Below are positions 7,354-64,000 of a DNA stretch of 64,000 nucleotides, piece by piece. The DNA comes from Agarophyton chilense (lineage: Eukaryota; Rhodophyta; Florideophyceae; Gracilariales; Gracilariaceae): contig JARGXX010000115.1 of assembly GCA_030374765.1 (NCBI GenBank), positions 620,001 through 684,000 on the forward strand. The letters are read 5' to 3'. Positions within the stretch are counted from its first letter, which is position 1. Each line of letters opens with the position of its first letter. The notes under the pieces are model-generated. The model was not told the origin of the DNA, did no database searches, and saw only the letters and a program-made list of their open reading frames with translations. A program made the translations under genes and the position numbers.

Positions 7354-9810
7354 CTACGGTTCTGCGGGTGCCGGATTAACGGCTGGGTTCGCGGTCGTGC
7401 CATATTTCCTAAGGTCTATTGAGACCCGTTCTACCGATACAGTGTTTTTGAGTCCATCCATTTCGACCGTAAGGGTGTGCTCATTTGCTGAGATTACTTC
7501 ATATAGTCCTGTAGGCTTAAAGAGTAGCTTCGATTTGATATAAATATTGATTCGAATATCGTCTCTTTTCTCAGATGGTGTTGGTCTCGATTCACAGGGA
7601 GGGATATCAATGAAGACATATTCCCCAGTTTCCACCGTGGTTGTGCTCTTCTCCCCTTGATCGTAGTAGGCCTCATTACGCTTCTGGGCTACTGTACATT
7701 TGGAAATTGCTTCTTGTGAGGTTTTCCTGAGCTTTCTGAATATATCTTTCTTGACCTGAGTGGAGATAAGTGTACCTGATGCTCTATAGTTCTCGGGTCC
7801 TGGTTGAAAGGTAATACCATGAGATGTCTGTGAAAAGACCCGTTCGAAGGGAATAGTCTGCGTAGATCTATGTACCTGAAGGTTATAGGCAATTGTTAGG
7901 GGCTGTACATAATCAGCCCATCCAGTTTGGTGTTCTTCTAAATTTTGTAGTAGTATTTTTCCCAGGGGTGTTGTTGAAGCGTTCCGCTTTTCCGTGTGTC
8001 TGCGTATGTTACGCCGTGGTGAAGTAATGCTTCAACCCAAGCATTTTACAGACTGTTTCGAAGAACTTCGATGCTAAGTTCGGGCTATTGTCGGTGAGTA
8101 GGTACATTGGGGCAACGTACGGGTTTACCAAAGTATTCAGGAAGGCTCTTGCCAAGACCGTCAAGGTTGTGCATTTTAAGGGTATGTCGTTTTTGAGTTT
8201 GGAAAACCGATCGGTGATGACAACCACGAATCAATATCTCTCTGAGGGTTTCGGCAGTGAGCCCAGGATGTTGATAGCTACAAATTCCAAGGACCGCGCC
8301 GCGAGGAACAGCTTCATTTGGTTCTTGTGCTTTTTTAAACCACCTCTGGTCTCTACATTCGAGGCGCAGCGAGCCACATGGTTATGAAGATCGTTGGCTA
8401 TGTGGGGCCAGTACAAGTGTTTTCGAAAGGTATTATAAAACATTGTGGCTCCTGGATGATCTGCCAGTCTTTCGAAATGCCCTAAATATATTCCCTACGT
8501 GCGTAGGGACTCTGGTACAACCTTCTGGAGTGCTGCATGCAGGGTAGGACGACGCACTAGGTAGTCTCCATGGTATTTCTTGAACTGCGATCCTTCGATA
8601 CCAACTTGGTTTTTCAATGTCCTGCAATAGGTGTCCGTAGCTTGCGCTCGCGAGAGTTCCACTGGGGTTATCGGAGTGTCCTCCCCTTTTTCGATAGCTC
8701 CTAGCATTTCGATTGATTCTTCCTTCTGTCCTTCTTCATCATTCCATAGTCCTATTCGTTCGTCCATACCATATGGTTCTGCCAGCTAAATCGTGAAGCA
8801 TGGTACATCATCTTCTACCGGTTTGGTTTCCAGCTCATCTGTATTTAGCTGGGATATCGCATTCGCGGTGTTGTGTTCTATACCAGGGCGGCTTTAGACT
8901 TCATAGTCAAACTTCGAAGGTTGGAGTTTCCAACGACCTAATAATCTGGAGGCGTTTGCCAGACCCAATATCCACCTTAAGGCTTCGTGATCCGTTCGTA
9001 CATTAAAACGAGCACCATGAAGGTAAGGTCGCAACATCAAGGTGTTGTATACCACTTCGAGTCATTTCTTTTCCGTGACGGAGGAGTTTTGTTCCGTCTC
9101 TGTGAGTGCTCGGCTCCAGTAACCAATTGGTGCTTTTTATTCATCGTCCTACTCCTGCATTAGACAGCAACCAATGCAGTCGTCTGAGGCATTAGAACAC
9201 AATGTGTATGGTTTTCCCGCTTTCGGTAATGCCAATATGGGAGGTGAAAACAGCCACGCTTTCAAGAGTTTGAAGGAGTCCAGTTTGTCGTATTACAAAC
9301 CTTTCCGGTTGTTCTTTTTGGAGACGTAGGTTTAGAAGGGCTGCTATCTTTGCAAAGCCTTTGATAAACCTGCGGTAGACATTGGAAAACCCCGTGAAGG
9401 AGCGCATCTCCGTTTGGGTTGAAGGGAGTTTTGCCTTTTGTACTGCTCTGAAGTTTCGTTTGGCTACTTGAAGTTTTCCTGAATTGATTTTGTACTCGAG
9501 ATACTGTATCTTCTGGTAGAAGAATATACACTTTCTTGAATTCATAATTACTCCCGCCTTTCTCACGAGATCTAGTACGGTCCGGACGTTGTCGTAGTGC
9601 TTCTTCATGGTTCTGGAGTAGATCACGATGTCGTCTATATACACCACATCTTTCGCAAGCTTTCTCCCACACTTCCCGCCTCCCATGCACCCTGGGGAGA
9701 GAGACAGCATAGCATTCAATAAAACTTCACCACGTGAATTTTCATTCAAAACTATACTCTCCGCTTCACCCTTTGACACCCTCCCACCTCCATCTCATCC
9801 ATCTCCCGTC

Positions 9811-12801
9811 ATGCTGTCTTGCTGCTCTCACGGTTGCTTTTATCGAACAACTCCCTCTACTCCCTCTCTCAGCATCAAAAACGATGTCGACACGGCAAAA
9901 CCTCTAACCCCTACTTCATTCAAACCCCCAGAGCGGTTTCACACTGGCTCCACACATCAAAAAGCCACACATCCAAACATCAAATGGTCATTCCAATATC
10001 CGCCATCGCCACCAAACTCGTAAATCGAACCGGAGACGAACTCATTCACATCCTCAAAGACCCCTCCTTCTCACCCTCATACTTACAGTTTTTCATCTTC
10101 TCCGCCTCCCATTGCCTACAGCTCCACTCCAAACTATTCGAGCACACTATAGGCTCCATCTAATTCAAAACCTCCATCATATCAGACAAACTCAACAATT
10201 TCTCTGCAACATCATATTTCTAAGATCCCACACACGTCCTGCGCCAGCAACTGCAACTGGATTTCCACAACAACTACTTCTTCTACCAAGTCGGGCAATC
10301 TCCCACAGCCTGCATCACCCCCTTCACCCACCCCATGGCTTCTGAACTCGGCTCACACGTGTTCCCTGAAATGAAAGAACACATCCACTCCCAAGACCCA
10401 GACGTCATCTGGCACGAACCCAAACCCACCGCCCTCGACTCCTTCTTCTGATCTGTATAATAATACTCATACGAGTCCTTCACCACTCTCAAAATCTCCT
10501 TCCTCACCTTCTACACCTGGCGCATCACCCTCCTCAACTTCATAGATCCTTTTCGCCGCCACAGTATCTCTCGTAACTACATCCTCGTCGGTTACATCCC
10601 CATTTCATTCAACAACACTTCCTGTCCCTCAGACGACGAGTCCTTCGACATCAACCCCTCCTCCTACTCCATGACCCGCCCAATTCGTATGGAACTCGTC
10701 CAGAAGTCATTCAACACAATCCTCGACCCCCTCTGCTCCGCCGGTTCAAAAGGTCTTCGGTTATAAGACGCTGACGGCGTCCTTAGTCAATTTCATCCTG
10801 GCATCGCAAACTATAGCGCAGACATCCCGGAAGCAAAGGACACCCTCCCCGTCCTCCACGGCACAAAACCAATGAAGCCTTTCCATAGAAGCATCGATCC
10901 CCGCTCAGAGCCCAACCTTTACACTCCCCCCCTCATTCCACGAGCTGTCTCCCATACCATTCAAACAAGATCTTGGCACAAGCACCTCCTCTAAAACTCC
11001 GAGGAAGGCCTCCTTTCCCGAAAAGCGTGTGTCGCAAGAACGCGAAGAAACTAAGCCACAGAACTCCTCCATTCCAAAGCCCTCTCCTCCCACACCTCAT
11101 TCCTCGAGTCGTACCCCCTCCTCAATGTCTCCCCACTCCTCACCCTCTACTCCATCTTCTCCTTCGAACCACTTCACGACTTCCACCCCAGCATCTTAGA
11201 GCTCACCAAGCTCGCCACCATTGAAAGACTCAAGTCCTAACAACAATTATCCAACTTCGGTCCCTTACCCTCCCCCACCTCACTCAAGATCATCTGTACC
11301 TCACTTTTGAACCACTCCAACACATTCTCGCAGGCATTGAATTCCACTTCCCCACTCCGGGTGTTCATATCGACTTTTTAACTCCCGCAAAGGGTAAATC
11401 ACTCAACGGCTTCCTCACCCCCGACAGTATCAAATGAATGCTAGAAGCAAAGAAATACATAGCACTGGATGTCGTCTTCCCCTTCACCTGCTCCTTCGTC
11501 AACCTATGCTTCGATGAAAATGACACAGCACCCATCACCTCCATCTTCAAGTCCTACGCCGATTTCGTCATCAATGTGCTCCACTACCACAACTCCCCAG
11601 TATGGACACAGACCCGCATTTACTCCTTGGAGAGCCTCATCAAGAACTTCAAGTCAAACGCCCTTCCCATTCTCCGCCTCTTCCAGGCGTCTAACTTCTG
11701 AACACTCAAGTTCCATCTCCTCGATCAAATCATCTCAGACATCTGAAGATATGGAGGCCTTCTATTTAGGTGACGCTGGCGTCTACGAACATGCACATGT
11801 CCTCTTCAATAACCACGACCGCCGCACCTCCCGCAGAAGATTACCAGCTCATAGAGAGACAATCGACGCCATTTAACAATCAGAGAACTTCCGCAACTCC
11901 ATCTCCATCTCAACCTCAAACTTCTCCTCTTCTTCTCCACCTCGACGGCCCTGACTATTCTGCTATGGCATTGCAATTCTCCTTCGCGAATTCACCACCG
12001 CCGAAAAGTACCTCCTCTCCAATCCTCATTCCACAATCTCTTCTCTCTCAAACATCTTCCCCATTTCCATCATCTCCTTCATCAACCAGATCTCTCGAGG
12101 CACCCCCCCCCCCCCTCCCCGCTTTCCATAACCTGTGCCTCGAAACCCTCGGCCTCTCGTCATCCTCTTCTCATCTTCACAATCTCAAGTTCAAATTCGT
12201 CGACTCAGCTTTCGTTCGAGGCGGTTTCAACCTTTTTTTACGTTATTTTGACTCCCATCTCAATTGCATCCGTTCATCAGAGCCAAGCGCCTCACTCCTC
12301 CAGCGCATCTACGCGACCCCCTCTTTTCGTCCATCGAAGTCTCCCAAATCTTCCTAAATCTTGGTCTTCGTTACTACCTCTAAAAACTGCACCTTCCCCA
12401 CTACGTGGATCTACAATCTTCTAGCCCTTATCCGGTTTGATTTCAAAGAAAATGACTCAAACGATGGAAATTATGCCTTGGTACGCTTCTTCGAGGTTAC
12501 CAAGCCAGTCGATCTCGTCCATCGCAACCTCAACTGTGTCTCCCTTCTTTGGACCAAATATGATGAACTCGACTACGCCCTCTTTCTCAATCACAGCAAT
12601 TTCTCCCGAAACGTCTCCCCGTAGTTCAGTCTCATCCCTTTCTCCTTCATCGAAGGTTTGATTAACGTCGTCATCCAGAAATATCTCGCCAAGCCCTTCT
12701 TTCCTTCCGTTCACTGGCGATTCCACCGCTTCTACGTTCACAAATTCTACAGAGATCCACGCTCTCGTGTATACGTCTCAACCCAAAGCAAACATGCTTG
12801 A
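9811..12801 (+). pseudogene. Plavaka-type transposase, decayed
   Basis: Coding remains lie in all three plus frames, so this is a pseudogene with many frameshifts and stops. The order of blocks is as follows. First is a Cys/His finger at 9,811-9,900 (paired Cys, then QHQKRCRH). Then IPISAIATKL with KDPSFSPSY lies near 9,990-10,080, and a block ending DPFRRHSISRNYILVGYIPIS at 10,545-10,610. A D-A-D-G element is followed by ANYSADIPEAKDTL at 10,770-10,840; the Y-x-A-D-x-P-E string is a hallmark of Plavaka transposases. FEPLHDFH follows near 11,170. The C-terminal KFHLLDQII...RYGG...YEHAH block at 11,705-11,800 corresponds to the conserved KxH, E and H residues of the catalytic core. A domain ending ALVRFFEV...SLLWTKYDELDYALF at 12,470-12,590 is also typical of large CMC-type transposases. 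The same N-terminal blocks recur at 62,936-64,000. Confidence 0.7.
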
Positions 12802-12862
12802 ACTTCACATCCATAACACTGAGCATCTTCTTACAAGCATTGAACACATATTCTGCAGAGTC

Positions 12863-15090
12863 TCATACACTCCCCAAACCATCTCTTACCCCCTCTTCTC
12901 CTTCTTGTAGCATTGCATGATTCTCTCCTCTATGAACAGAACTTACTGCAACCTCCAGATCACATGGAAGTGGCTCAAACTCCAAATCATTCGGTCTGCA
13001 ACTCTTTACGTAACAGTCCGCAACGCATCCCAGGTGGTCCGTGAACTCGCTCATGAATAAATTTTCACGAACTGCCAAATACACAATTTTCTTCAAAGGC
13101 GTCCATAGTGCAACAGTTCCGACCCGCTCCGAATCGCCAAACACGTTCCTAGTTTCTTTCGTATTCACCCCTTTTCCTCCAGTTTCTCCCTGTGTCTTCC
13201 TTTCGCCTTCTCCCTCGCCGTCTCTAAAATCCCTTCTACGGCCAACGGAAGGCACTTTGAAGACAAATTCGTGAAAAGTATCTACAGTCTCCCACATCTT
13301 CCCATATCAAAATTCATTGCCTGCACTATAGACGTAATCCACCCATCTAGGCATCCTAACTGCACAACACTCCCATCCACATACATATACCTTTCCTCCG
13401 CTTCCCGCGACTATTGTTGCACGTTTTACCAAAGAAACTCCCTCAGCACTTACAAACTCATTCCGTTTTGGAATGACATATCATGAGGCTCATTCTCATA
13501 ATTCTTCGAACATACACGAAACCCAGGGAAATTTATCTTTTCTACTATCCTCATCCTCCAAGTCCACAATTGTTCATTCCCACCGATATCCTTCCGAATT
13601 ATCTTCTGAAGCGCCTTCTACAATAGCAACACGTACATTCTCCGCACTTAGTTGTCCTTTTCTTTTCTAGGACGCCTAGCTATCAAATTATACCCCAGTT
13701 CCAAAAACAGCTTCTCCCTCGCATTACTCTTTCGTACACCCACAGTATCGCTCAAAGACTGCTTCAGCCTATTCTACAAACACGCATCCTTCGTCAACTT
13801 CTGCACACACTCCGACTCCTTCCCCAACGACCGTACTGATGCCCATATCGGCCTTTCCAACTGCATACTCACCACATCGTACAACCACACCGCACTTCCT
13901 CCCTTCACCAACGGCGTAAACGGTTTCATCTCTCGCACTACTTCCATCGCACATATCCGAAAAATCTCTTTCCCATCCATGACCATTAAGTTTTTCTTCC
14001 CTCTCTTCTCCCACAACCCTACACTTGTTCGCCCAGTTCCTCGCCACAGGACCAGAAAGACACAGCTCCGACGTCTCACTCTTCGCATACTGAAGCACAC
14101 TGTAATATACATTCTTCGCCACCCTCATAGAACCTTTCATCCCCTTCTATCCCATGGCGCATTCTCCTACCTCTCTCCATCACATTCGACTTCCCTTTTT
14201 TGTTCGTCACCGCCTGCCGTAACGATTGTATAAGAAGTTGGTGATCTTTTACCTCCTTATTAAACCGTTGGATCTCTTCCTGGGCCAACAACAAACTCAT
14301 CTTGAAACTTTTACAATCATCCCTAGCACTATATACTTCCCCCTTCACCCTATCCATCTTCATAAGCAGTTCATCCCGTATGAAATTCGACTCCCCTACA
14401 CACCGCACTCCGCTAGTCTCTCCATTAGGGTTTTCAAACCCAATTTCCTCCTCAAAATCATCCCCCCGGTCCCGTTCCCTTCTCATACTCCCATGCTGAC
14501 CTTCTATCCAATCTTCTTCTTGTTCACCCTGGCTCTCCTACCATCGCTTGCACCCTCTCTCCGGATCCCTGTGAAACAGGATGCACGCAGTCTTCATATT
14601 CTACCGGTATCTAGATTTCGTTTTCTTTATCTGCGTGTTCTTCCACCCAATTCGTAGACCCCTCACCCCGATCCCGTGGTCGAAGAATCTATCCTATACA
14701 TCTCGTCCCCGTCATACATATCGCACTTGTAGCCGGCTCAGGGAGCTCTGAACCTCTATTTGAAAACTTCACCTTCGCTGGCACTACCTTTGTTCAAGAC
14801 GCGGATTTCATAGTTTTTGGTCTAGGCGATGCTCTCGTCGCTTTCTTCGCTTCTTGCACGGTCCGTCGCGTAATCTTCGGCAGCTCGATCATGTTTTCTA
14901 TAGCAGATACGCCCGTAGAATCTGATACGAAATCCTAGTGCCTTCTCTTTCCATACCCATCCTCCCTACGATTCGATGGGGCCTTCTCCGACGGCTTCCC
15001 GCGCTCCACATGAGTAGCCTCCGCAGAATCCCTGCGCGCCGGCTTCGGCTTCGGGGTCGGCTTCTCCTTCACCTTCGACTTCAGACGGTA
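12863..15090 (-). pseudogene. Transposon ORF B: charged protein with a coiled coil
   Basis: The gene reads leftward and ends 62 bp from the end of the transposase gene, so the two converge. It begins near 15,090 with a Lys/Pro-rich low-complexity stretch (KEKPTPKPKPARRDSAE), followed by IENMIELPKITRRTVQEAKKATRAS. At 14,486-14,076 there is a clear heptad coiled coil (FIRDELLMKMDRVKGEVYSA, then LLLAQEEIQRFNKEVKDHQL). The C-terminal part (13,297-12,863) is an open frame of 144 codons with no family I know. Several stops and frameshifts separate the pieces. The minus strand is purine-rich here, as expected for coding of a charged protein. Function unknown; accessory proteins in CMC elements often help the transposase bind DNA, but that is only analogy. 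Confidence 0.5.
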
Positions 15091-15596
15091 TGAGAGAAAG
15101 AGGGAGGAACATGAAAAAGAAGAGAGAAACCAGGCGGAGAAGGAGACGGAGAGTGTGGATGGTGGGAAGGGAGAGAAAGGGCCTTGCGACAGTTTCGGCT
15201 GGAGAAACTAAGAACCGTGGGGTGGAAGCTCGATTTCGTAGTTTCCAAAGATTTGGGAGTTATATTTTCATCTCTAACTGTGCTGCCCGCAACGCCCTTA
15301 AAGCACAAAACACCCAATACGGTTTTAATAGGATTGATGTGAATATCACCTGCTTAGAAGGATCGACACGACGCGGAAGAGTACTGTATGTCTCGCGAGA
15401 GTTGTACAGCGGTTCATTAGAATCCGACCGGGGTTTTTCGCGCGCGCTGGGAGTTTCCCGACCGTTAGCGCGTTGCGAACAGACAGTGCCCTTCCTTGTC
15501 AAAATGCGACGAGGTGACCTAAGGCGAACCCGGAAGTCAAAGGGTAATCCTACTGGAAGGAACCAAGGCGCCCTGAGGAAAGCAGAACGCCACGAG

Positions 15597-18500
15597 ATGG
15601 TGATAACGAGAAGCAATGCGAATGGGGGGAGTGAAACGAGTCCGGCGCCAAAGCCTGAAGCGCAAGGGAATCATCTGGTGCAGGGACCGAGTGGGTCAAA
15701 GAAAACGGTTGGTATAGTGGTGTTGATGTCGGTGATTCTCCCACCTGGGAGCTTAGTGCTGCAGCGATATTTACACTTTCATAGTATACAGATAAAGTCG
15801 AGTCAGGATATGGTGGCAATATAAAAGGCCAATATTATAAACGAGAAGGGGTTGAAGTACATGTACCTCTTTTTTGGTCTCGATCCTGATGCTCTGCCGA
15901 AAACGCTGGGGGATATGTACGACAAGAACCTTTACGCTTGGGACGCAAATTTCATAGGGCCGCTTGCTCTACCTGTAGCAACCGCAAAGACCACCGCTAC
16001 CCCCAACCCCATCCATCCCGAAAGCGAAGACAGCCCCGAAGCCGAGTCCAACGCCGAAGAAAACGCCGAATCCGAAGGGGAGGTCAGAGACGTTGAGAAC
16101 CATTTTCAGCCTCAGTGATGATGATGATCAGGAGAAGATCAGGCCAGTGGTACGTTTAGCAACGTGAAAACTCGGACGAAGCATGGGAACCCTAAAAACG
16201 TAACTCTAAACGCAACCAAGGGGAACCAAGTCATTGCACCGAATAGTGCGGCGACGGGCGGTGCCGAGAATATTGCGACACCTTCGAAGCCTGCTGCTAA
16301 GGGTGGTGAGGGGAATGTGCAGGTGTTGAAGACGCCGGAGACTGTTCAGTCAGAAACTAAGGCTTTTATGTGGGCGTCGGCATCGATCTGATTCACCCCC
16401 CAGAGGTAACGGTGAAGGCTGTTTGTGAACCCCATGTACTGAAATTGTTGAATTCTGTACGAGGCAGCGGATTCCTGGGAGAGGCGGGTACCTTGAGCAT
16501 TTCTGTGGCTAAATCCGATAAGCCGATGAGCTAATGGGTGATGGACAATGTATGTGGGTGACATCCTTGCCCATTGATGGCCTTCATCGACACCTTGCTT
16601 TCAACGGCCTGAAGCCAACGCTACGAGACATTACGGATGTGTGCAGGAAGCCAAATTTGTCGTAGTGGAGACTAAAGAATGGGCGTATGATTACGATGAG
16701 GGAGACTCTGGCAATTGAGAATGCTTTGAACAACACGATGGAATTTGGGAAGAAAATGTCGTTTGCCGACAAGTTTCACAATGTAGTATCGATAGTGAAA
16801 ATGATTGCCCAGTTGGAGAAGATAGAAATGTCGTTCATTACCGTCAGTTCTCTTGCCGGGGCTCTAAAGATGAGTCGTGTAGTGAGAGACTACACCATCC
16901 GCCCTTTGACTCGTTTCGCAGAGCTTGGTTTGGAATTCGCAAGGACGGATGGGCTTTTGGAGTATGTGGAAGACGTTTGTTTGAAGTATGGGGAGCTGGG
17001 GTTGACCCACTTATCGAGCGATATATTCCGACACATGAAAGGTGATGGAACGTACTTTTCGTTGGAAACCCTGAGGGAGTATCTGGAAAGGAAGAGGAAT
17101 GCGAGGAGTGCGATGGGAAGGTTTGAGGGCATAAGAAGAAGGTCTCTCTATGACTGCCTTTAACAGATGTTGTAAAGTCTGTGCGGAGCTGGTGGGTCTG
17201 AAGAACAAGACGTTGGAGGAGATGTTTGAGAAGCCAGTGCAGGTGACAAAAGTGTCAATCCTCCCGTTACGGGAGTTTGTGGGTCGGAACATGGCTCAGT
17301 TGGAGGTGGTGGCGACGACGAAGGCGATGTGGGCTGGAAAAATCTCGAACACGTTGAAGCTTGTGCAAGCGAAGCTCAACAAGCAGTTCAAAGTTGAGCT
17401 TAGTGGTACCAGGCCCACCAATGCTGCGACCCAAGCGCCGAGCGCAGCTGAGGCTGCTGCCCTCTCTGGAGGAGAAAGACCCGCCAGGAAAAGTGCAAGA
17501 AAGAAGAAGGCTAAGAAGATAGCTGCAGAAAACGATGATGAGAATGAAGAAGAAGACGATGTGCATGTTCCGCGGAGCGCTCGGAGGAAGCGTGTGGAGA
17601 AGGGGGGATGTGGACAGGTTTTGAAGAAGGCGAGGCTGGAGGACCCTGTTGCGGAGTATGTGATAAGCCAGTTCCGGACGATAGGATCTCGTGGTATGCG
17701 GCTGTTATTCAGAAGCAAGGATATCACCCTCCTGAGTGATTCGGAGCACGACGAAGAGAGCGGCAATTTTGGGGCGTTTAATGAACTTTTTCCGGCGGTC
17801 TTGGAGCCTGAACTGGAGTAGGCGAAATAAGTAGTGGTGAAAGGGGGGAAGTCGTGGCTTGCATATGCGACGCAGTTGGCGAGCAGGCGGCCGGAGGGCA
17901 TTGAAGAGGAGATTAAGGACATGTATTCGTGGATGGATATGGTGCATTTGCGAATGGAGCACCGTGGCCATCTGCTGAGACCAAAGACATGAGAGCTGTT
18001 CATCGTGTGGTATTCTGCCATGCGCCGTACGAGAAGCAGAGGGCGGCGGTAATTAAGGAGGGAGCGGTGGAAAAGAAAGAGGAGGAGAGATTATGGAAGG
18101 GGGCGACGACTGAAGATTATTATTCTTTCGTGTACTTTGCGAGGATGCCAAAGGATGTGAAAGAGCCCAGGCTCTGTAGGCTGGAAGGGTTTGCGACGTA
18201 TTCAGGAATTGTGGAGAAACTGGCGGAGATGAGCGAACAGATGGATGGGGATGTAAGTATAGGAATGCTGGAGTTCTTTGAGACCAGCTTCAGGAAGCAA
18301 GATGGGTTTCGGAAGCCAGAGAACCAGACGACATGGACTGCTGTCATTTGTGCCGGGGAAGAGCAGGATCCGTCTGATAGGAGCAGGGGGCTCGGAAGGT
18401 ATATGACGACGAGTAGGGGGACAGTTGATGAGATGGAGTAGAACGCGAATAGGCATGTGTGGGTGAAAAAGCGTGCGATGTTGGATGCACGAATGAGACA

Positions 18501-19146
18501 GATATGTGTGTGCCTTGGTTTGGAAGAAAACCGAGTGGCGGTGAAAAAGATGTACGGTCCGACTACTGGAGGAAGGGTGTTGTGTACGGGGAAGGGATGT
18601 CCCGGGCCTAAGCTAAATACTGACTTTCAGAAGCTGACCGATGATGAGAAGATGTAGGGGAAGACCCCGGGCTATTTCATGTTAGCGTCTGGGAAGTATT
18701 CGTTTCCATTGTGGGTGTGTGAAAGATCGCATACCCATTATGTGACGAGCAATGCTGAGTTAGAGTGGTTGGAGCAGGGGGTGTATGTGAGGAAGTTCAC
18801 GATACCGCCAATGTCGATATTTATTGGGAGGGAGGATGTGTTCTATGCTGAAACGGGCAGTTCGGAAGGTTGTATGCCGGATAAAGAGCTGTTCCGGTAC
18901 CATATGTACGTGGTTCCGGATAACTACAGCGGGCCTGATGGGGTGCACCTGGAGACAAGATTTAAGCCAAGGTTTAGAGAGGACTGTGCTTTGCTGGGGG
19001 AGAAGGGGGTGGATGAAGGGGATGCAGACGTGGCAAGGGATGTTGAAGAGGGGGTGGTTAAGGTGATATCGGGGGGAGAGGTGGAGGGAGATCACAATGA
19101 TGAGAGCTATGAACCTTCGAAGGGGGAAAATGCGGTGGAGGATTAA
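15597..19146 (+). pseudogene. Transposon ORF C: long charged protein with possible beta-helix C-terminus
   Basis: The likely start is the ATG at 15,597 (MVITRSNANGG). Coding remains continue through several frames: a Glu/Ser-rich stretch near 16,010-16,110, a Thr/Ala/Lys-rich stretch at 16,160-16,380, a helical region at 16,690-17,160 (FHNVVSIVKMIAQLEKIEMS) and a basic nuclear-localisation-like run (RKSARKKKAKK) followed by an acidic run near 17,480-17,560. The last block, 18,679-19,146, contains IPPMSIFIGREDVFYAETG, then FRYHMYVVP and DGVHLE. This spacing of a proline-flanked strand, a polar turn and R-x-H resembles the second half of a double-stranded beta-helix (cupin or 2-oxoglutarate oxygenase type), though the histidine expected at the metal site appears as Tyr. 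Stops and frameshifts break the gene. Function unknown. Confidence 0.45.
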
Positions 19147-19247
19147 GAAGAAAACTGAGTGGTTAAATGGGGCGTGTTTTTATTTGGTTTTATCTTTTTC
19201 GAAGAGAATGAACGTTTGTTAAGGTGGAATTGCAATTCCTACTGCTA

Positions 19248-20300
19248 TTAGAAGGGAAGGAGGTCGCTGGTTCTTAGTCTTGGGTACTCACTGATTGCGG
19301 AGATGTAGCACTTGAATTTGTATTTGTGTTCGTAGTTGATGGCGGCGGAGGAGATGAGAAGGGTGATGAAGAGGTAGTTGGTAAGTACTGGAGGGACGGC
19401 TGTGAGGGAGGTGAAGGAAGAGTGGGTCGAATATCTGAGGAGGAAGTGAGCTAAGAACACGAGAACAACTCTACAGAGGAATGTTTGAATGGAGAAGACG
19501 ATGTCGTCGAGGAGAAGAGCAAGACGCAAAGACTTGGGAAGGTGATTTAGATGAAATAGAGAATGCCGTGAGGGTGGGGGGGTGTTGGGGAGGGGAAAGA
19601 GGATGTGGAAAGGATTTTCGGCGTGGCAAAACATTAAGAGTCTGTCTACGGAGTAGGCTGTGAGGGCGAAGAGTACACCGCCGGGGAAGAATGAAATTGA
19701 GGCGGTCTTGATGGAAGAGAGGAGGGAGGGTTGGGGAGGGAAAAATTGGTATGCCAAAGAGATGGAGGCGTTGAGGGCGATGAGGCCACCTAGGGCAAGT
19801 CTTGTGATTTTGGGTGCCAGAGTGCGCAGTCCTCCGGAGTGAAGATTTGAGTTGATGGGAGTGATGGCTACGGATCCATGGGAAGTGTTATGGAGGTCGA
19901 AAGCGAAGTCGAACAGGAGGATGTGAAACAATGTTTTGATGATGCTGTAAGGGATAGTGAAATCTCTTCCTCTTTCGCAGGAGGTGTGAACGATAAGAAG
20001 GTAGTAGGTGAGAATAGGTTTGACAATGCCGTAGAGTGTTCTTACAGCAAATGAGAGTAGGAGTTCGAAGGAGAGGAGAAAAGTAAGAGTAAATACGTGA
20101 GAAAGGGTTCGGGAGATGGGACGTGCAGAAGGGATGCATTTGAAGAGATGCTGAAGGGAAGGGAGGAGAGAGAGGAAAACAGTGTTGTCTAGGGGGCGGT
20201 GATGGTAAGAATTTGTGAAGAGAGCGCTTACTATGTCGTTGAGTTCAGTGAATAGTTGTTTTGTGATGAGTACTGCACCACCTCGCACTTGGGCGGACAT
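19248..20300 (-). CDS. Intact multipass membrane protein inside the transposon
   Basis: A complete frame of 350 codons starts at an ATG (MSAQVRGGAVLITK) and ends 101 bp from the end of ORF C, so it converges with that gene. It has about six hydrophobic segments, including LTFLLSFELLLSFAV, TLFHILLFDFAF, LALGGLIALNASISLAYQFF, FPGGVLFALTAY, FLCRVVLVFLAHFLL and YLFITLLISSAA. The loops are short and rich in His, Arg and Ser. I recognise no family. Its frame is open over 1 kb while every neighbouring gene of the transposon is broken. It may be a late cargo, or a pyrimidine-rich strand that stays open by composition alone; the plus strand here gives only short, interrupted frames. Confidence 0.45.
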   Translation of the reverse strand: MSAQVRGGAVLITKQLFTELNDIVSALFTNSYHHRPLDNTVFLSLLPSLQHLFKCIPSARPISRTLSHVFTLTFLLSFELLLSFAVRTLYGIVKPILTYYLLIVHTSCERGRDFTIPYSIIKTLFHILLFDFAFDLHNTSHGSVAITPINSNLHSGGLRTLAPKITRLALGGLIALNASISLAYQFFPPQPSLLSSIKTASISFFPGGVLFALTAYSVDRLLMFCHAENPFHILFPLPNTPPPSRHSLFHLNHLPKSLRLALLLDDIVFSIQTFLCRVVLVFLAHFLLRYSTHSSFTSLTAVPPVLTNYLFITLLISSAAINYEHKYKFKCYISAISEYPRLRTSDLLPF

Positions 20301-20380
20301 GGTATCTCTAGAGGACTCGATTTCTAAGGATTAGGTGTAGGTAAAAAGAATTCTGTCTGGGATTAGCGGAGGCAAAGTTG

Positions 20381-20860
20381 AGGGATATGGAGAAGAGAGT
20401 GGTTCAGTTGGAAGGTAAGGGTCGAGGTGGTGGAGCGCCTCGGGGGTCTTCTGTGACGCAGAAGTTCAGGGTTGTGAAGGTTGGAAAGCCTAGAGCGTGT
20501 CTCGGGAATGAGGAAAATGTCTAGAAGGTGGAGGCAACGCAGGAGGTGGACAAGACGAAAGGGAGAGTTGGAAAGAAGAGGCCGATTGTGGCGAGCGATA
20601 TGGAGGTGGAGCAAAGGAAGGTGAAGTTGAAAGTAAGGGAGAAGAAGGGGGAGGAGAGATAGGGGAGGGTTGGTGGCTTTAGGACTTTGGGGGCTGCAGT
20701 GAGTGAGGTGGCGAGGATTCTAGCGGAGCAAGAGATGAAGAGATGGGATGCTTTGGAGCGGAAGGACGCACGTGGTGGGGGTGGAGATGTGAAAGAGGAA
20801 TGGGATAGGTTTCCGGAAAACTTCTGTGCGCTGACGTTCCTGGGGACGGAAGCGTAGCCG
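20381..20860 (+). pseudogene. Transposon ORF E: short charged protein remnant
   Basis: Plus-strand remains read LRDMEKRVVQLEGKGR, then VGKKRPIVASDMEVEQRK, then AAVSEVARILAEQEMKRWDA and end FPENFCALTFLGTEA. Two in-frame stops interrupt them. The segment is rich in Lys, Glu and Arg with helical, coiled-coil character. It is divergent from the membrane-protein ORF, with starts about 80 bp apart. No family is recognised; it may be the start of a gene cut off at the transposon end near 20,930. Confidence 0.35.
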
Positions 20861-22081
20861 CCACTGGTCGGGGAGTGCTTCTGAGGAGGAGAAATGGTGG
20901 GGATCGTACGTCGATGGTGGGTTTATTGAAAGGTTAATTGGTGTTTGGTAAAGAGAAGAAATCTAGCGTTTCACTTCCATCGAAAGAGGTGCAAACTAGC
21001 TATTCAGAGCACTTCCCTTCTGCATTCACCACTGCTAGTGTCTTTACGAGCACTGGCCTCATATATGAGGCCAAAATTTTAACATTTATTATTTTTGTAA
21101 ACTTTGTCAATTTCCTTAAATTTTGTGCCTAGAAGTTGTCAAGACTCCTTCTTCTCCGGCGTCAACTTCAAAGATAACGAACGATCGTCCAAAACCTGTA
21201 AACAACATCATCCTTACTTCATTCTTTCACAATTTATCAAATATGTCATCATCTATGGATCTCTGTCGTGTAGTGGGAAATAGAGTAAATACCCGCTCGC
21301 CTCTCATCACATCAGAGAGCGACTGTAAACGCTTCTTTGGCACGCAATGAAAGACGAAACTGGTCAGCAGAAGTGTTACAAAAGTGGACGTTGTTGTCAA
21401 AATTAATCGGAGATAAACTTTTGTCACTATAAACTTCGAGCTACCTGGTCGCAAGAAAGAATGCACTCTCAAACTTTTCAATTTGAAAGCCGGGGATCAT
21501 TTCACGCTTCAGAAAACTGCTCAAGAAGCCATCAATTCCAACATGGAGATAAATGGTGCTGTTATTACTAATGAAGTTTCGAACAATGAAGATCAGCATA
21601 CTTTCACGGATGGCGATGACAGTCATACAATAAATCCGTTGAGCCCTTCTACTGTGAAAAAAAAGTGACACGCAAGACAGCTTTGTGGAAGTTCATTCGA
21701 CGAAATGGAACAACAGAAAATGTATCCTTGACTCTGAATGGTCCAGTGCAAATGCATCAATGGAAAGTCACTGGACCTGTTGGAGATTTTATCTCCTCCA
21801 TTCATGCCCCCTGGCGACTTTCTTCATACGATTTCTTCATGTGGATGTTTCTTGTAGCTCATTTGAAAAAAATAGTTCGATCTACCATCTCTCGGCGGGA
21901 AGGAAAAGGCTTAAAGTAGACTACAGGAGGTGAAATTTTTAAGTTTTTCGGTTTGATGGTGTTAATGACAGGCTTTGAGTTTTCGAAAAGAAGATCAGTT
22001 TAGTCTAAAGACATGTTTTCAAAGTATATTTAATCTCCGCAGCTCGTTAAGATCATGTAACGAAAACGGTTTGAACATATG

Positions 22082-22997
22082 TGTGGAGCAAAACCCGGCG
22101 ACGGGAAGTGCTCTCAAGGTGTTCGAAGCCTTGCTCCCTGGGGGAGGCAGACTCAGAGACAGAGCCCTCCGTTCCACCCGTAGTGTGGGGTGTAACTCCC
22201 ACGGGGGATTCCGGCAGTACCGACGGAGGTGAGGGGTAGAAACCGTTGGATCGGGAATGGGTATGGGTATCCCAAAGAATGGGGGAAAATCCGGCGAAGA
22301 GGAAAAACGGGGCGAGGGTCGGGCACTAACAGGCACCGGACCCGAGAACCAGAAAAGGGGCGAAACAACAAAAGAAACACAATACAGGGGCGAAAACCTG
22401 TCCTCGAAAGGAAACACAAAAAGCACGCAACAAGTAAGCAGAACCCCCACGGGGTATCGTGCACGCAGGTCGTCTGAGCGGTCCCAAGGGGGTGGTTGCA
22501 CGGAACCCAAACGTGGGCACTCTCCAAGTGAAGTCGTGTCCCTACGCAGGCGTTGCTAACCAGAGCCCTTTCCGGGTTGTAAGGCCGAAACGATGGCGAC
22601 GAAGAACCTCTAAAGGTATCGAAGACCAACCTTGGTTACCATTTACTTTGAGCTTCGGACTGTCAGATCTCATCTCCCTAAGAAGGGCCCACTAACTAAA
22701 CTCTACAGTAGTGCACACCTGCTCAGGGCCATACACGTAGAGATCCCACTGTCAGGGCCCAAAAGTCCAACGTTCTAACAAATATCCGAAAATCGGTGCC
22801 AAAACTAAGCCACGTGTATCACGGGGCCAATCCAACCATGGGCCATCCGAATTGTCACTTCATAGGCGAACTCTAACCAGAAAACAGTGCCACCTCAGTA
22901 CACCTTAGAGGGGATCATAGTCATAACCCTCGGAGGGTTCAATCCTCATTCTATGAGTTGCATCTTCAAGTATCCCCTAACTGGGCGTTGCTCTACA
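22082..22997 (-). repeat. 3' LTR of the chromodomain gypsy element
   Basis: 916 bp, opening TGTGGAGC and closing GCTCTACA on the plus strand, so it has the usual TG...CA ends. It matches the LTR at 32,923-33,838 over its full length with about ten substitutions and no length change. The flanking ATATG repeats on the far side of the other LTR. Confidence 0.95.
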
Positions 22998-32922: not shown

Positions 32923-33838
32923 TGTGGAGCAAAACCCGGCGACGGGAAGTGCTCTCAAGGTGTTCCAAGCCTTGCTCCCTGGGGGAGGCAGACTCAGAGA
33001 CAGAGCCCTCCGTTCCACCCGTAGTGTGGGGTGTAACTCCCACGGGGGATTCCGGCAGTACCGACGGAGGTGAGGGGTAGAAACCGTTGGATCGGGAATG
33101 GGTATGGGTATCCCAAAGAATGGGGGAAAATCCGGCGAAGAGGAAAAACGGGGCGAGGGTCGGGCACTAACAGGCACCGGACCCGAGAACCAGAAAAGGG
33201 GCGAAACAACAAAAGAAACACAATACAGGGGCGAAAACCTGTCCTCGAAAGGAAACACAAAAAGCACGCAACAAGTAAGCAGAACCCCCACGGGGTATCG
33301 TGCACGCAGGTCGTCCGAGCGGTCCCAAGGGGGTGGTTGCACGGAACCCAAACGTGGGCACTCTCCAAGTGGAGTCGTGTCCCTACGCAGGCGTTGCTAA
33401 CCAGAGCCCTTTCCGGGTTGTAAAGCCGAAACGATGGCGACGAAGAACCTCTAAAGGTATCGAAGACCAACCTTGGTTACCATTTACTTTGAGCTTCGGA
33501 CTGTCAGATCTCATCTCCCTAAGTAGGGCCCACTAACTAAACTCTACAGTAGTGCACACCTGCTCAGGGCCATACACGTGGAGATCCCACTGTCAGGGCC
33601 CAAAAGTCCAACGTTCTAACAAATATCCGAAAATCGGTGCCAAAATTAAGCCACGTGTATCACGGGGCCAATCCAACCATGGGCCATCCGAATTGTCACT
33701 TCATAGGCGAACTCTAACCAGAAAACAGTGCCACCTCAGCACACCTCAGAGGGGATCATAATCATAACCCTCGGAGGGTTCAATCCTCATTCTATGAGTT
33801 GCATCTTCAAGTATCCCCTAACTGGGCGTTGCTCTACA
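32923..33838 (-). repeat. 5' LTR of the chromodomain gypsy element
   Basis: Full-length partner of the LTR at 22,082-22,997, the same 916 bp, offset 10,841 bp. It carries the element promoter on the minus strand. It is followed outward by the ATATG target duplication and then by PiggyBac-like transposase sequence. Confidence 0.95.
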
Positions 33839-43635: not shown

Positions 43636-46600
43636 TCACCCGCTGCCGCTATCGGCCGTCACCTTACCGCCTTCATCTGCCGCCACCATGTCCGTGTCGC
43701 CTCCCACTGGTGCTTTTGCGCCACCGCCCAGCACAACCTCCGCCTCCTTCCCGACCGCGTCCGCTGCCACCTCGCTAGTAGTTTTAGTCGGCGCGTCCGC
43801 GCCATCGTCTGCTACCACCTTGACGGCGTCGTCCTTCACTGCGTCCACGCCATCGTCCGTCTCCGCCTTGGCGGCGTCGTCCTTCACTGCGTCTGCGCCA
43901 TCGTCTGCTACCACCTTGACAGCGTCGTCATTCACCTTGTCCGCACCGGCCTCCGTCTCCACCTTGACGGCGTCGTCCTTCACTGCGTCCACGCCATCGT
44001 CCGTCTCCGCCTTGGCGGCGTCGTCCTTCACTGCGTCTGCGCCATCGTCTGCTACCACCTTGACAGCGTCGTCATTCACCTTGTCCGCACCGGCCTCCGT
44101 CTCCACCTTGACGGCGTCGTCCTTCACTGCGTCCACGCCATCGTCCGTCTCCGCCTTGGCGGCGTCGTCCTTCACTGCGTCTGCGCCATCGTCTGCTACC
44201 ACCTTGACAGCGTCGTCATTCACCTTGTCCGCACCGGCCTCCGTCTCCACCTTGACGGCGTCGTCCTTCACTGCGTCCACGCCATTGTCCGTCTCCGCCT
44301 TGGCGGCGTCGTCCTTCACTGCGTCTGCGCCATCGTCCGTCTCCGCCTTGACGGCGTCGTCCTTTACTGCGCCCACGCCATCGTCCGTCTCCGCCTTGAC
44401 GGCGTCGTCCTTCACAGCATTCGCGCCATCGTCCGTCTCCGCCTTGATGGCGTCGTCTGTCTCTGCATCTGCGACAGGATCCACCTCGGCCTTGACAGTG
44501 TCGTCCTCTATCGCTCCTGCGCCGACGTCTGGCTCCGCCTTGACGGCGTCGTCCTTCACTGCGTCCACGCCATCGTCCGTCTCCGCCTTGGCGGCGTCGT
44601 CCTTTACTGCGCCCACGCCATCGTCCGTCTCCGCCTTGACAGTGTCGTCCTCTATCGCTCCTGCGCCAACGTCTGGCTCCACCTTGACGGCGTCGTCCTT
44701 CACTGCGTCCACGCCATCGTCCGTCTCCGCCTTGACGGCGTCGTCCTTTACTGCGCCCACGCCATCGTCCGTCTCCGCCTTGACAGTGTCGTCCTCTATC
44801 GCTCCTGCGCCAACGTCTGGCTCCACCTTGACGGCGTCGTCCTTCACTGCGTCCGCGCCATCGTCCGTCTCCGCCTTGACGGCGTCGTCCTTTACTGCGC
44901 CCACGCCATCGTCCGTCTCCGCCTTGACGGCGTCGTCCTTCTCAGCATTCGCGCCATCGTCCGTCTCCGCCTTGATGGCGTCGTCTGTTTCTGCATCTGC
45001 GACAGCGTCCACCTCGGCCTTGACAGTGTCGCCCTCTATCGCTCCTGCGCCAACGTCCGGCTGCGCCTTGATGGCGTTGTCTGTTTCTGCATCTGCGACA
45101 GGATCCACCTCGGCCTTGACAGTGTCGTCTTCCATTGCTCCTGCGCCAACGTCTGGCTCCACCTTGACGCTGTCGTCCTTCACTGCATCCGCGCCATCGT
45201 CCGTCTCCGCCTTGATGGCGTCGTCTGTTTCTGCATCTGCGACAGCGTCCACCTCGGCCTTGACAGTGTCGCCCTCTATCGCTCCTGCGCCAACGTCCGG
45301 TTCCGCCTTGATGGCGTCGTCTGTTTCTGCATCTGCGACAGGATCCACCTCGGCCTTGACAGTGTCGTCTTCCATTGCTTCTGCGCCAACGTCTGGCTCC
45401 GCCTTGACGGCGTCGTTCTTCTCTGCGTCGGCGCCAATGCCCATCTCCGCCTCGACGACGTCATCCTTCACTGCGTCCGCACCAGGGTTCGCCCCTGCGT
45501 CCGGCCCTACCTTGGAGGCGTTGTCCGTCTTTGCGTCTGCGGCCACCTCTGTAGCAGCCCCCTCCTTCACGTCCATGCCAGTCACGGGCTCTGCGGCATC
45601 GCCTGCCGCTTGGGCAGTCTGAGCCACGGTCGCGGCGACAGGCGCGGTGAGCGCCTCTGCGCCACCATGCACGTTTTCGTACGCCGCGTCATCCGCAGCA
45701 GCGGCCTCCTTTCCGTCGGCGTCTATCACGGCCGTCTCAAGCTTGGGAGCAAATTGCACGTGCCGCTCCACATGAGCTTGCGGGTGCGTCTGCTCTACAG
45801 CGTGCTCCTTTCCGGTGACGTCTTCCGTTGCGTGTGATACAGCGTCAACTTGGGCATCCGCTACGGTGTGTTCGGTGGAGCGCGTGTGCACTTGTTCCAC
45901 AGGAAACTGCTGAGCTTCCGCTGCATCGGGTGCGTGCGCCTTTGTGGGGGCGTGCTCGACGGCATTCGTCTCGGAAGCTTCTACAGCATCGTCGGCGGCA
46001 GCGGATGGTTGCATCGGGGTGACGACGGGCTCCTCGTCAGCGATAGCGGGCATGTGAGGGTGGGCGTTGGAGGCAGCGTCGGTGGAAGGGGGCACGGGGC
46101 CGTCGGCGACGACGACGACCTCGGCGGTGCCGTTGAGCCCTTCGTGTAGGGCAGCGTCCGCGGGTGCGGGCTCGTGCTGCGGCGACTCGTCCATGAGGTT
46201 GACCTCGCGAGCCCAGTCCTCCAGCTCGGCCTTGACGGCGTACAGCTCCTCCTTAAGGTCGGCGCTCTCGTTGGCGAGCACGTCGCGCTCACGCTGCACC
46301 TCGACCAGCTGGTGAGCGCCGGAGCGCAAGTCGGCGCGAAGCGCGAGCTCCACGGCGTCACGTTGCTCAACTAGCGCCTCCAACGCGGCCTTGTCGCGCA
46401 GCAGGGCGTCACAGCGGCTTTTGGCATCCTGATCGCGGCGCGTGATGACGAGCTCGCGCTCGGCCACAACGGACTGCGCCTCGCGCAGGCGCGCCTCTAA
46501 GGCGGCGTTCTCGGCGGTGACGGCGACCAAGGCGGCGTTCTCAGCGGCGAGGGCGGCGGTGGCTGTGGCGCGCGCCGCACTCTCGCTCTGCAGCGAACTG

Positions 46601-62100: not shown

Positions 62101-62452
62101 ACGATTAGCAGAAGGCAACATAGTACAACGCAAAACACGCTGCAACTTTCGAGGAGACCTCATGAAGCCAGGGCTTCATCATGATCCTAAACATACTATT
62201 TCATACACGGCAGATAGAAAGACACAACGCATGCTCTCAGCCCTACACGCAGCACTCAACCTTTCCCTCGAGCACTTCGACATCAATTCCGCCTACCTCC
62301 ATGAGAAGTACGAATATTCCCGAGCAGTTCATATCAAACAGATTCAAAAGTTCGACTGCACATATCTTCATGATAGCACATATGCACGGCTGATCGGCAA
62401 TCTCGTCTGTGTTCTCATGATGCTAGTTCAGGCGTCACAAAGAACGAACTAA
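59174..62452 (+). mobile_element. Ty1/copia remnant C (fossil), truncated in reverse transcriptase
   Basis: Plus-strand parts in order: a gag start with KLSDLDTTNYALWHLALKT, as in copia gag; a Cys/His knuckle region near 60,150; protease with CLLDSGAHPINI near 60,380; the integrase core (RSDNAKEYTS, PHQPQENGIAGRLNRTIMD) at 61,350-61,510 and its tail; then the first part of reverse transcriptase (LEHFDINSAYLHEKYEY) to about 62,450. The rest of reverse transcriptase and RNase H are absent. It carries many breaks. Its family differs from remnants A and B. Confidence 0.8.
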
Positions 62453-62935: not shown

Positions 62936-64000
62936 ATGCCTCGCTTCTGCTTCTCCCGTTGCTCCTTGTTCGCCCGCACCACCCCTGCCCTACAGCGCCA
63001 CCAACAAAGGTGCCCTCACCGGCTCTCCTCCACAAAACGCACGCCCCCACCAACCATAACCAGCTTCCCTCCACGCACAAAGCGCCACAAGTCCATTCCT
63101 CAACTGCACGCCCCTCTCACCCCCTCAAACCGCCCCTCCAATAACGTCCTCTTCTCAGATGAAGTCTGCTACCACCACCAGGAACATTCCCTGTCCCTCC
63201 AAACTGCAGACGCAAACCACATCGCTTACAGTCCTCTCTGCTCCGTCTCATTCTCAGCCCCACTCCCTCATCCCCCCCTCACCCCCACAAGTAGAGCAGC
63301 CCGTCCTCAACATCTCCTCGATTGCCACCAACCTCGGCCACCGAAAAGCAAAGGAGCTCATCGCCATCTTCAGCGATCCAAGCTTCTCCAAATCAAGCTT
63401 CCAGCGAACCATCTCCTGCGCCCGCCAATGAATCGAGCTCCAGGAAAACCTCTGTAAGCACCGCATCCGTTCCTTCGGCTTCGTCCCACACTCCATCAAC
63501 GACACTCTCAACTGCTTCTCCGCAACCGTCTACCTCAAAAACCCAATAGATGTCCTCAATCATCAGCTCTCCCTCGCACATCACCACAACACCTTCTTCC
63601 GCCCCATCGCCCGAAAGTTCCAATTCGGTTCCCCCGCCTTCGCTCACTCCATGGCCGCCGCTCTGGGGCATAAGGCCTTCCCCGCACTCAAATCCGCCAT
63701 CATGCAGTCCAAGAACGACAAGATCATATGGCACTGCTCCCACACAACCGGAATGGACTCCTTCATCGGTTTCATCCAGCTCTACTCGAACAAGTCCTTC
63801 ACCTCCCTCAAAGCCTTCTCCGTCACCCTTTGCCGCGTCCACATCACCCTCCTTAACTTCTCAGACTCTTTCAGACGAAAAAGAATCTCTCAAAACCTCA
63901 CCCTCGTCGGGGACCTCCTAACCTTTTTCCAACCCACTGCATCTGCCCCCGAAGCGGACGCTATCCTCCGCTCGTCCGCGGATATCCATCGCGAAACAAG
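62936..64000 (+). pseudogene. Second Plavaka-like transposase, N-terminal part, cut by window end
   Basis: The start reads MPRFCFSRCSLFARTTPALQ followed by RHQQRCPH, a C2HC-type finger as in Plavaka transposases (F-x-T-x3-L-x2-H-x4-C pattern). Then come LNISSIATNLGHRKAKELIA with DPSFS at 63,305-63,390, and a block at 63,540-63,930: HSMAAALGHKAFPALKSAIM, TGMDSFIGFIQLYSNKSFTS, SVTLCRVHITLLNFSDSFRR, ISQNLTLVGD. The MDSF residue is the likely first catalytic Asp. The order and residues match 9,811-10,620 (e.g. ITLLNF-D-FRR-IS-N-LVG), but the two copies are well diverged. At least two frameshifts occur in the visible part. The remainder lies outside the window. Confidence 0.7.

Follow-up and report, generated by a model that had tools for sequence, protein, structure and literature searches.

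A decayed gene block in Agarophyton chilense as the probable remnant of a giant Plavaka transposon lineage with putative self-marking enzymes

The window analyzed here is a stretch of 64,000 nucleotides from the red alga Agarophyton chilense (C115:620001-684000), and genome searches covered the 79.8-Mb assembly. It contains a block of genes that the original prediction described as an 11-kb Plavaka-like transposon carrying four extra genes. The locus raises the question of whether these genes belong to one mobile element and what they might do for it. The block is a dead, decayed copy of a giant Plavaka lineage, which has lost its tips and one gene and contains stops and frameshifts. The preferred reading, which is given a probability of about 0.68, is that this is a cut-and-paste lineage equipped with self-marking enzymes. 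Its members share inverted tips, are mostly flanked by 2-bp target duplications, and encode a DDE transposase of the Plavaka type; their six-gene order is complete in one element (C10) and partial in window-type copies.

C10 (C10:918487-937296) is a complete element of 18.81 kb, flanked by TA on both sides and with one mismatch in one tip; it is the one complete member of its type covered in full. Its genes are arranged as transposase (+), coiled-coil (-), methyltransferase-SET (-), charged (+), membrane (-), and short (+). The transposase lies in a frame of 1137 amino acids (1087 from the chosen methionine), and the coiled-coil gene consists of a 583-amino-acid frame and an overlapping frame of 396. 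The remaining open frames encode 1043 (methyltransferase-SET), 1228 (charged), 231 (membrane, from TTG), and 166 (short) amino acids.

Related copies are numerous in the genome. A search with window 10000-12000 as the transposase query, in which 40 of 206 candidates were scored (46 match rows), provides lower bounds: besides the window, at least 17 matches of 900 bp or more at 78-82% identity and at least 21 matches of 1 kb or more at 66-70%. Hits of the transposase and four further window segments (210 rows, the window's own five rows excluded) formed 96 clusters. Two or more segments were present in 40 clusters, and all 40 were colinear with the window. In 19 clusters, the transposase is represented at 76% or more (in one through a 66-base piece only); 14 of these kept the coiled-coil gene and nine kept any segment further right, with a gap limit of 16 kb. 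The predicted block of genes in alternating orientation is present, far beyond chance. The constant segment order, together with a complete C10 between tips, also upholds the proposal that the genes travel jointly.

The relatives share inverted tips of the form CGTCTGTGTT[C/T]TCGGAA, or more generally CGTCT..AGACG. This tip was found 455 times in the genome at up to one mismatch and 0 times in the reversed control. The left tip, CGTCTGTGTTCTCGGAA, begins three of the four left-extended window-type copies, about 1.06 kb to the left of the window limit; in the fourth it is degenerate. A fifth copy, C6, also has the left tip. At the right end, the exact inverse of the tip is present in C6 and C100 and close versions in C73, C1, C95, and C7; C13 ends without a tip, as does the window copy. 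Among the first 100 listed tip sites, thirteen further plus/minus pairs lay within 30 kb, of which ten were examined and three (25-30 kb) were omitted. The 2-bp flanks matched in 8 of the 10 pairs versus 9 of 90 mismatched pairings, and a 3-bp match occurred in none. In four other tip pairs (C77, C6, C21, and C10), the 2-bp flanks matched in every case, which brings the 2-bp target duplications to 12 of 14 pairs overall. Terminal repeats and a target duplication, which the original prediction had left to be defined, are hereby defined in the relatives.

The transposase places the lineage among Plavaka elements, as had been predicted. PF18759 was found in the intact transposases of C21 (9.8e-22) and C10 (1.4e-22), and both have a DDE arrangement with C(2)C and H(3-4)H between the second D and the E. 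A transposase fragment of one window-type copy scored 18.9 bits, below the cut-off of 26.3 bits. The window pieces are tied to the intact relatives by 50-56% amino acid identity to the 957-amino-acid open reading frame (ORF) of C21, from position 9978 on, and match the C10 transposase at 37-43% over 9777-12780 (+), the overall extent of transposase homology (tblastn). The match contains 15 in-frame stops and is spread over four pieces in three frames. The altered catalytic Asp was judged by eye from the ORFs.

The window copy itself is truncated, and its features are collected in Table 1. The borders first proposed, 9690 and 20935, are not ends of the element: homology extends further on both sides, and both tips are missing. 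The left homology limit lies at 9652-9678 in eight of the ten window-type copies (blast against the window). On the right, the copies that have this end align up to 21032-21039, and one up to 21075. A broken Gypsy reverse transcriptase meets the remnant at approximately 9652, where four other copies continue for about 1.06 kb to the tip; the PF00078 match spans 9195-9794 (-), with residues 50-102 aligned. A tip search at up to four mismatches gave 9 sites in the window, whereas five shuffled versions averaged 3.8, and none of the 9 sites is at the ends of the remnant. A perfect 20-bp palindrome, TGGCCTCATATATGAGGCCA, is located at 21054-21073, just past the loss of right-end homology. In the blast comparison, five of the ten copies are unbroken to approximately 15084, and one other has pieces to 18349. 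Two segments are absent from the window copy and present in at least five others; they measure about 180-200 bp (at 9981) and some 350 bp (at 15084). Only the membrane ORF, of five genes, is uninterrupted. The 11 kb first proposed measure a truncated remnant.

Table 1. Features of the remnant and its left neighbor, in window positions
Feature	Position	Strand	Basis	Remark
Gypsy-type reverse transcriptase fragment	9192..9651	-	PF00078 3.9e-8	in place of the element's left part
Window-type large Plavaka transposon remnant	9652..21039	.	homology to other copies	both tips gone
Plavaka transposase pseudogene	9811..12780	+	tblastn	DIPE block at ~10.8 kb; first catalytic Asp position changed
Coiled-coil gene, decayed	12870..14537	-	tblastn	
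Approximate site of methyltransferase-SET gene in related copies	15270..15325	-	copy homology limits	gene absent here
Long charged gene (dioxygenase-like), decayed	15609..19143 (approximate)	+	tblastn to 1228-amino-acid C10 ORF	
DGxHR motif	16573..16590	+	translation	reads IDGLHR
C-terminal dioxygenase-like domain	17983..19134	+	alignment	HTD -> NTD, FHAG -> FYAE in window copy
Membrane protein ORF	19251..20330	-	tblastn to C10 membrane ORF; hydrophobic segments	360 amino acids, open
Short charged ORF with stops	20361..20860 (approximate)	+	sequence	

The coiled-coil and charged genes of the remnant can be traced to C10 in the same way. The coiled-coil gene is 39-48% identical in amino acids to the C10 ORF and 33-44% to that of C21 (tblastn), and its DNA copies in the genome are mostly 78-83% identical. 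The charged gene aligns to the 1228-amino-acid C10 ORF in four pieces, the best at 41.6% over 394 amino acids (E 4e-84). Five copies lose their homology to the window at 15214-15324.

The 1043-amino-acid protein of C10 is a predicted DNA N6/N4 amino-methyltransferase joined to a SET domain. PF01555 matches it at 3.4e-18, above the cut-off, and the DPPY motif precedes the S-adenosylmethionine motif, a permuted order. Structural comparison, in which the fold of a relative was included, placed the N4CMT structures 8s9m, 8s9n, and 8s9o among the fold matches. No SET chain was present in the 50 rows listed of either comparison, both of which are filled by the methyltransferase domain. Methyltransferase remnants in the same orientation were found in three of the ten window-type copies: L019 (1e-13), L009 (3e-5), and L018 (4e-11). 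Those in L019 and L009 lie past the point where homology to the window stops, and that in L018 lies further right. A 601-bp methyltransferase stretch is identical in a second copy on C117, at the position predicted by the C10 map. This identity points to recent movement or duplication; the system may therefore still be active here.

When 102 of 171 candidates were scored, the charged gene had at least 104 matches in the genome; 24 of these fall inside frames of at least 1000 amino acids with no stop within the match. Two intact proteins, of 1228 and 1316 amino acids, are 36% identical; HTDF, FHAG, and RYHMY stand at equal spacing in both, and DG(H/L)HR lies further up, reading IDGHHR and VDGLHR in the relatives. 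An HxD...H facial triad followed by an R further downstream is the pattern expected of an Fe(II)/2-oxoglutarate dioxygenase, and the DGxHR motif is taken by resemblance to be ParB/sulfiredoxin-like. At the motif level, the protein fits an iron/2-oxoglutarate dioxygenase and perhaps contains a ParB-like domain. The label "dioxygenase" rests on motifs because no library match was significant. The original prediction had named an oxygenase-like or cupin-like partner; the oxygenase is supported at the level of motifs, and the libraries gave no match for it. A profile search of the PDB with a four-row alignment of the protein also gave no match. A single-sequence model of the window's dioxygenase segment had a predicted local distance difference test (pLDDT) score of 33, and a codon-position test of the window against C77 gave a weak signal. 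A genome search for PF12851 (Tet_JBP) was empty, and its controls gave no matches either. In viral contigs, 0 of 255 pattern matches were confirmed for the charged-domain alignment and 0 of 53 for the methyltransferase-SET alignment; thus no viral relative of either protein was confirmed in these scans.

Two further observations concern the charged gene. The 1316-amino-acid form has 13 near equal-scoring copies (L050 is C31:727300-731500), and for at least 10 of these the nearest contig end is no more than 30 kb away (e.g., C96:3057, C33:3550, C95:4092, and C95:2992077); their location points to a subtelomeric family. An ORF beside the C21 coiled-coil gene also contains the N-terminal domain found in the charged protein (about 30% amino acid identity, E 5e-14; L044:7904-8383 (-) and L049:7190-7708 (-)).

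C21 and C77 show how far the gene content varies between the same tips. C21 (C21:389558-408974) is 19.4 kb long, is flanked by CA on both sides, and has the 957-amino-acid transposase frame and the coiled-coil gene. It contains no charged gene (tblastn), and a methyltransferase remnant was looked for and not found. At 14.3-19.2 kb, it carries Rieske and PaO oxygenase domains (PF00355 and PF08417). This Rieske/PaO-type gene (L045:5244-6882) was probably captured recently, since it lies in a stretch without the element's strong skew. C21 also has a TsaD-like fragment (tRNA modification; PF00814, 2.1e-9; L044:8485-9312 (-)), the translation of which also matches C75 at 78-84%. C77 (31.75-39.63 kb) has the same tips and kept the charged gene, while the transposase and the coiled-coil gene are gone. 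As judged from the alignment, C77 is an internal deletion form, because it matches C21 at 85-94% on both sides of an 11.6-kb gap. A nested insertion in C75 had been considered and was dropped once C77 proved to be a deletion form. The original prediction held that copies of the transposase lacking the extra genes, or extra genes without the transposase, would speak against it. Both were found, in C21 and C77, respectively, and are read as a different cargo and an internal deletion within elements that have these tips in common.

This variation also gives room to the view that the additional genes are passengers, which persist by chance or benefit the host as in Starship-like shuttling, and serve no role in the transposon's own life. 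The oxygenase and TsaD-like fragment of C21, its lack of the charged gene, and the weaker skew of its Rieske stretch relative to the other modules all agree with it. However, gene order and orientation agree between one lineage that has the full set and another that has parts of it. Since the transposases of the two are only 37-43% identical in amino acids, this agreement argues for long shared retention. The 24 charged-gene matches in long open frames also oppose mere passage. Passenger cargo is accordingly considered unlikely.

Another explanation is that the membrane and other ORFs are artifacts of strong strand composition. Pyrimidine-rich strands would be expected to contain few stop codons, and the guanine-cytosine (GC) skew is very strong in the window remnant, C10, and C21, at about -0.5 on the left and as much as +0.5 on the right. 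Among window-type copies, the membrane stretch has 69/64/71 substitutions by codon position, without bias. Against this explanation, the window membrane ORF matches that of C10, a separate lineage, at the protein level (28% over 211 amino acids, E 8e-15). The other frames of the same DNA have fewer hydrophobic segments (C10, 0 versus 3; window, 0 or 1 versus 2). In both the window and C10, the membrane ORF points to the 3' end of the charged gene. A composition artifact is therefore very improbable for the membrane gene, but for the short ORF this explanation stands. The short ORFs of the window and C10 are alike in place and orientation only, and no tblastn match was found between them. The switch in strand bias that had been noted is real as a GC-skew switch at about 15.0 kb. 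In C10, the skew on the gene's own coding strand is -0.53 for the transposase and +0.51 for the coiled-coil gene and tracks distance from the tips, not the coding strand. Finally, a stand-alone Plavaka transposase beside unrelated insertions or host genes might seem to explain C21, in which the transposase and coiled-coil gene are present but the right-hand genes of the window are not, and C77, which has the charged gene without the transposase, but it is close to refuted by the 40 colinear clusters, the complete C10 with both tips and TA duplication, and the status of C77 as a deletion form.

Under the preferred reading of a self-marking Plavaka lineage, the transposase would cut at the tips and move the element by cut-and-paste. 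The methyltransferase-SET protein would methylate DNA amino groups and histones at the element, and the dioxygenase-like protein would oxidize or remove marks. Together, the two modifying proteins may maintain the element in an open state, so that it can be expressed and can transpose, or they may label it as self, and the coiled-coil and membrane proteins would be accessory. The more specific proposal is a private epigenome kit on a DNA transposon, in which one protein writes N6-methyladenine or N4-methylcytosine as well as histone methylation and a dioxygenase-like protein erases or modifies marks, serving self-marking and escape from host silencing. It is offered tentatively, at somewhat less than even odds. 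Several observations weigh against these readings. Two of the 14 tip pairs have no duplication. The SET match in C10 is marginal (PF00856, 23.4 bits versus a cut-off of 22.4), a precomputed SET domain is present in only 7 of 21 metagenomic relatives, and the C-terminus is variable. The charged protein has no significant match in Pfam, including ParB/sulfiredoxin-like families, in PDB sequences, or in a collection of 5.8 billion proteins (7991 candidates scored). Moreover, the charged and methyltransferase genes are probably dispensable for transposition, because C21 has neither the charged gene nor a detected methyltransferase remnant.

Parts of this system resemble elements already in print. 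A Plavaka element is expected to carry terminal inverted repeats and to duplicate 2 to 3 bp of its target. PlavakaA and PlavakaB (Kojima 2025, PMC12730594) share PF18759, a DDE transposase with C(2)C and H(3)H, and 2-bp target duplications with the present lineage. Their tips are TGT..ACA and CATCA..TGATG, respectively, versus CGTCT..AGACG here, and the available part of that paper mentions no methyltransferase-SET gene for them. The same paper describes fungal DNA transposons that bear TET/JBP genes, likewise a dioxygenase-like gene on a DNA transposon, and argues that these genes likely aid escape from silencing. The PE type of TET/JBP has HxE, whereas HxD (HTD) is found in both intact proteins here; the charged protein also differs in its length of 1.2-1.3 thousand amino acids, its DGxHR motif, and its lack of a Pfam match. 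Giant repeats of Amoebidium (PMC11244446) are also large blocks tied to a Plavaka transposase, but they form tandem clusters of up to 50 kb and many of their genes are tyrosine recombinases. Starships are large fungal elements with variable cargo that use a tyrosine recombinase, whereas a DDE Plavaka transposase (PF18759) is used here; no recombinase match was found among the ORFs scanned with Pfam.

The bdelloid N4CMT (PMC8885841) likewise combines an N6_N4 methyltransferase of permuted bacterial type with a chromatin domain. However, it is a host gene with a chromodomain that puts 4-methylcytosine on transposons, whereas the present gene is transposon-borne with SET. Dinoflagellate and charophyte retrotransposons also carry DNA methyltransferases, but these are C5 cytosine enzymes (PMC5890265). 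Plavaka, dioxygenase-bearing Plavaka, and large Plavaka repeats (PMC12730594, PMC11244446), as well as eukaryotic transposons with 5-methylcytosine writers or TET-type erasers (PMC5890265, PMC12730594), are thus already described. In the accessible portions of openly licensed papers, an amino-methyltransferase-SET fusion beside a dioxygenase-like gene on a DNA transposon was not found. The CGTCT tips and the six-gene order were likewise not met in that literature, supplements excluded. By title, the combination of ParB and dioxygenase on transposons returned bacterial papers only.

The window contains other repeats outside the remnant. A second Plavaka element probably begins at 62404 (+) and runs to the window end at 64000; its tip has three mismatches, and a transposase match starts at 62936 with up to 54.6% amino acid identity to the C10 transposase. 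Direct repeats of 916 bp at 22082-22997 and 32923-33838, 98.9% identical and 10.8 kb apart, are probably the long terminal repeats of a young retrotransposon. A large tandem repeat array occupies 43793-45541, with shifted copies about 71-85% identical.

The putative modifying enzymes encoded by C10 itself suggest that elements of this kind mark chromatin chemically by themselves. With them, it becomes testable whether transposons remain active by depositing DNA and histone marks of their own. Genome annotation could also mistake these transposon genes for epigenetic enzymes of the host.
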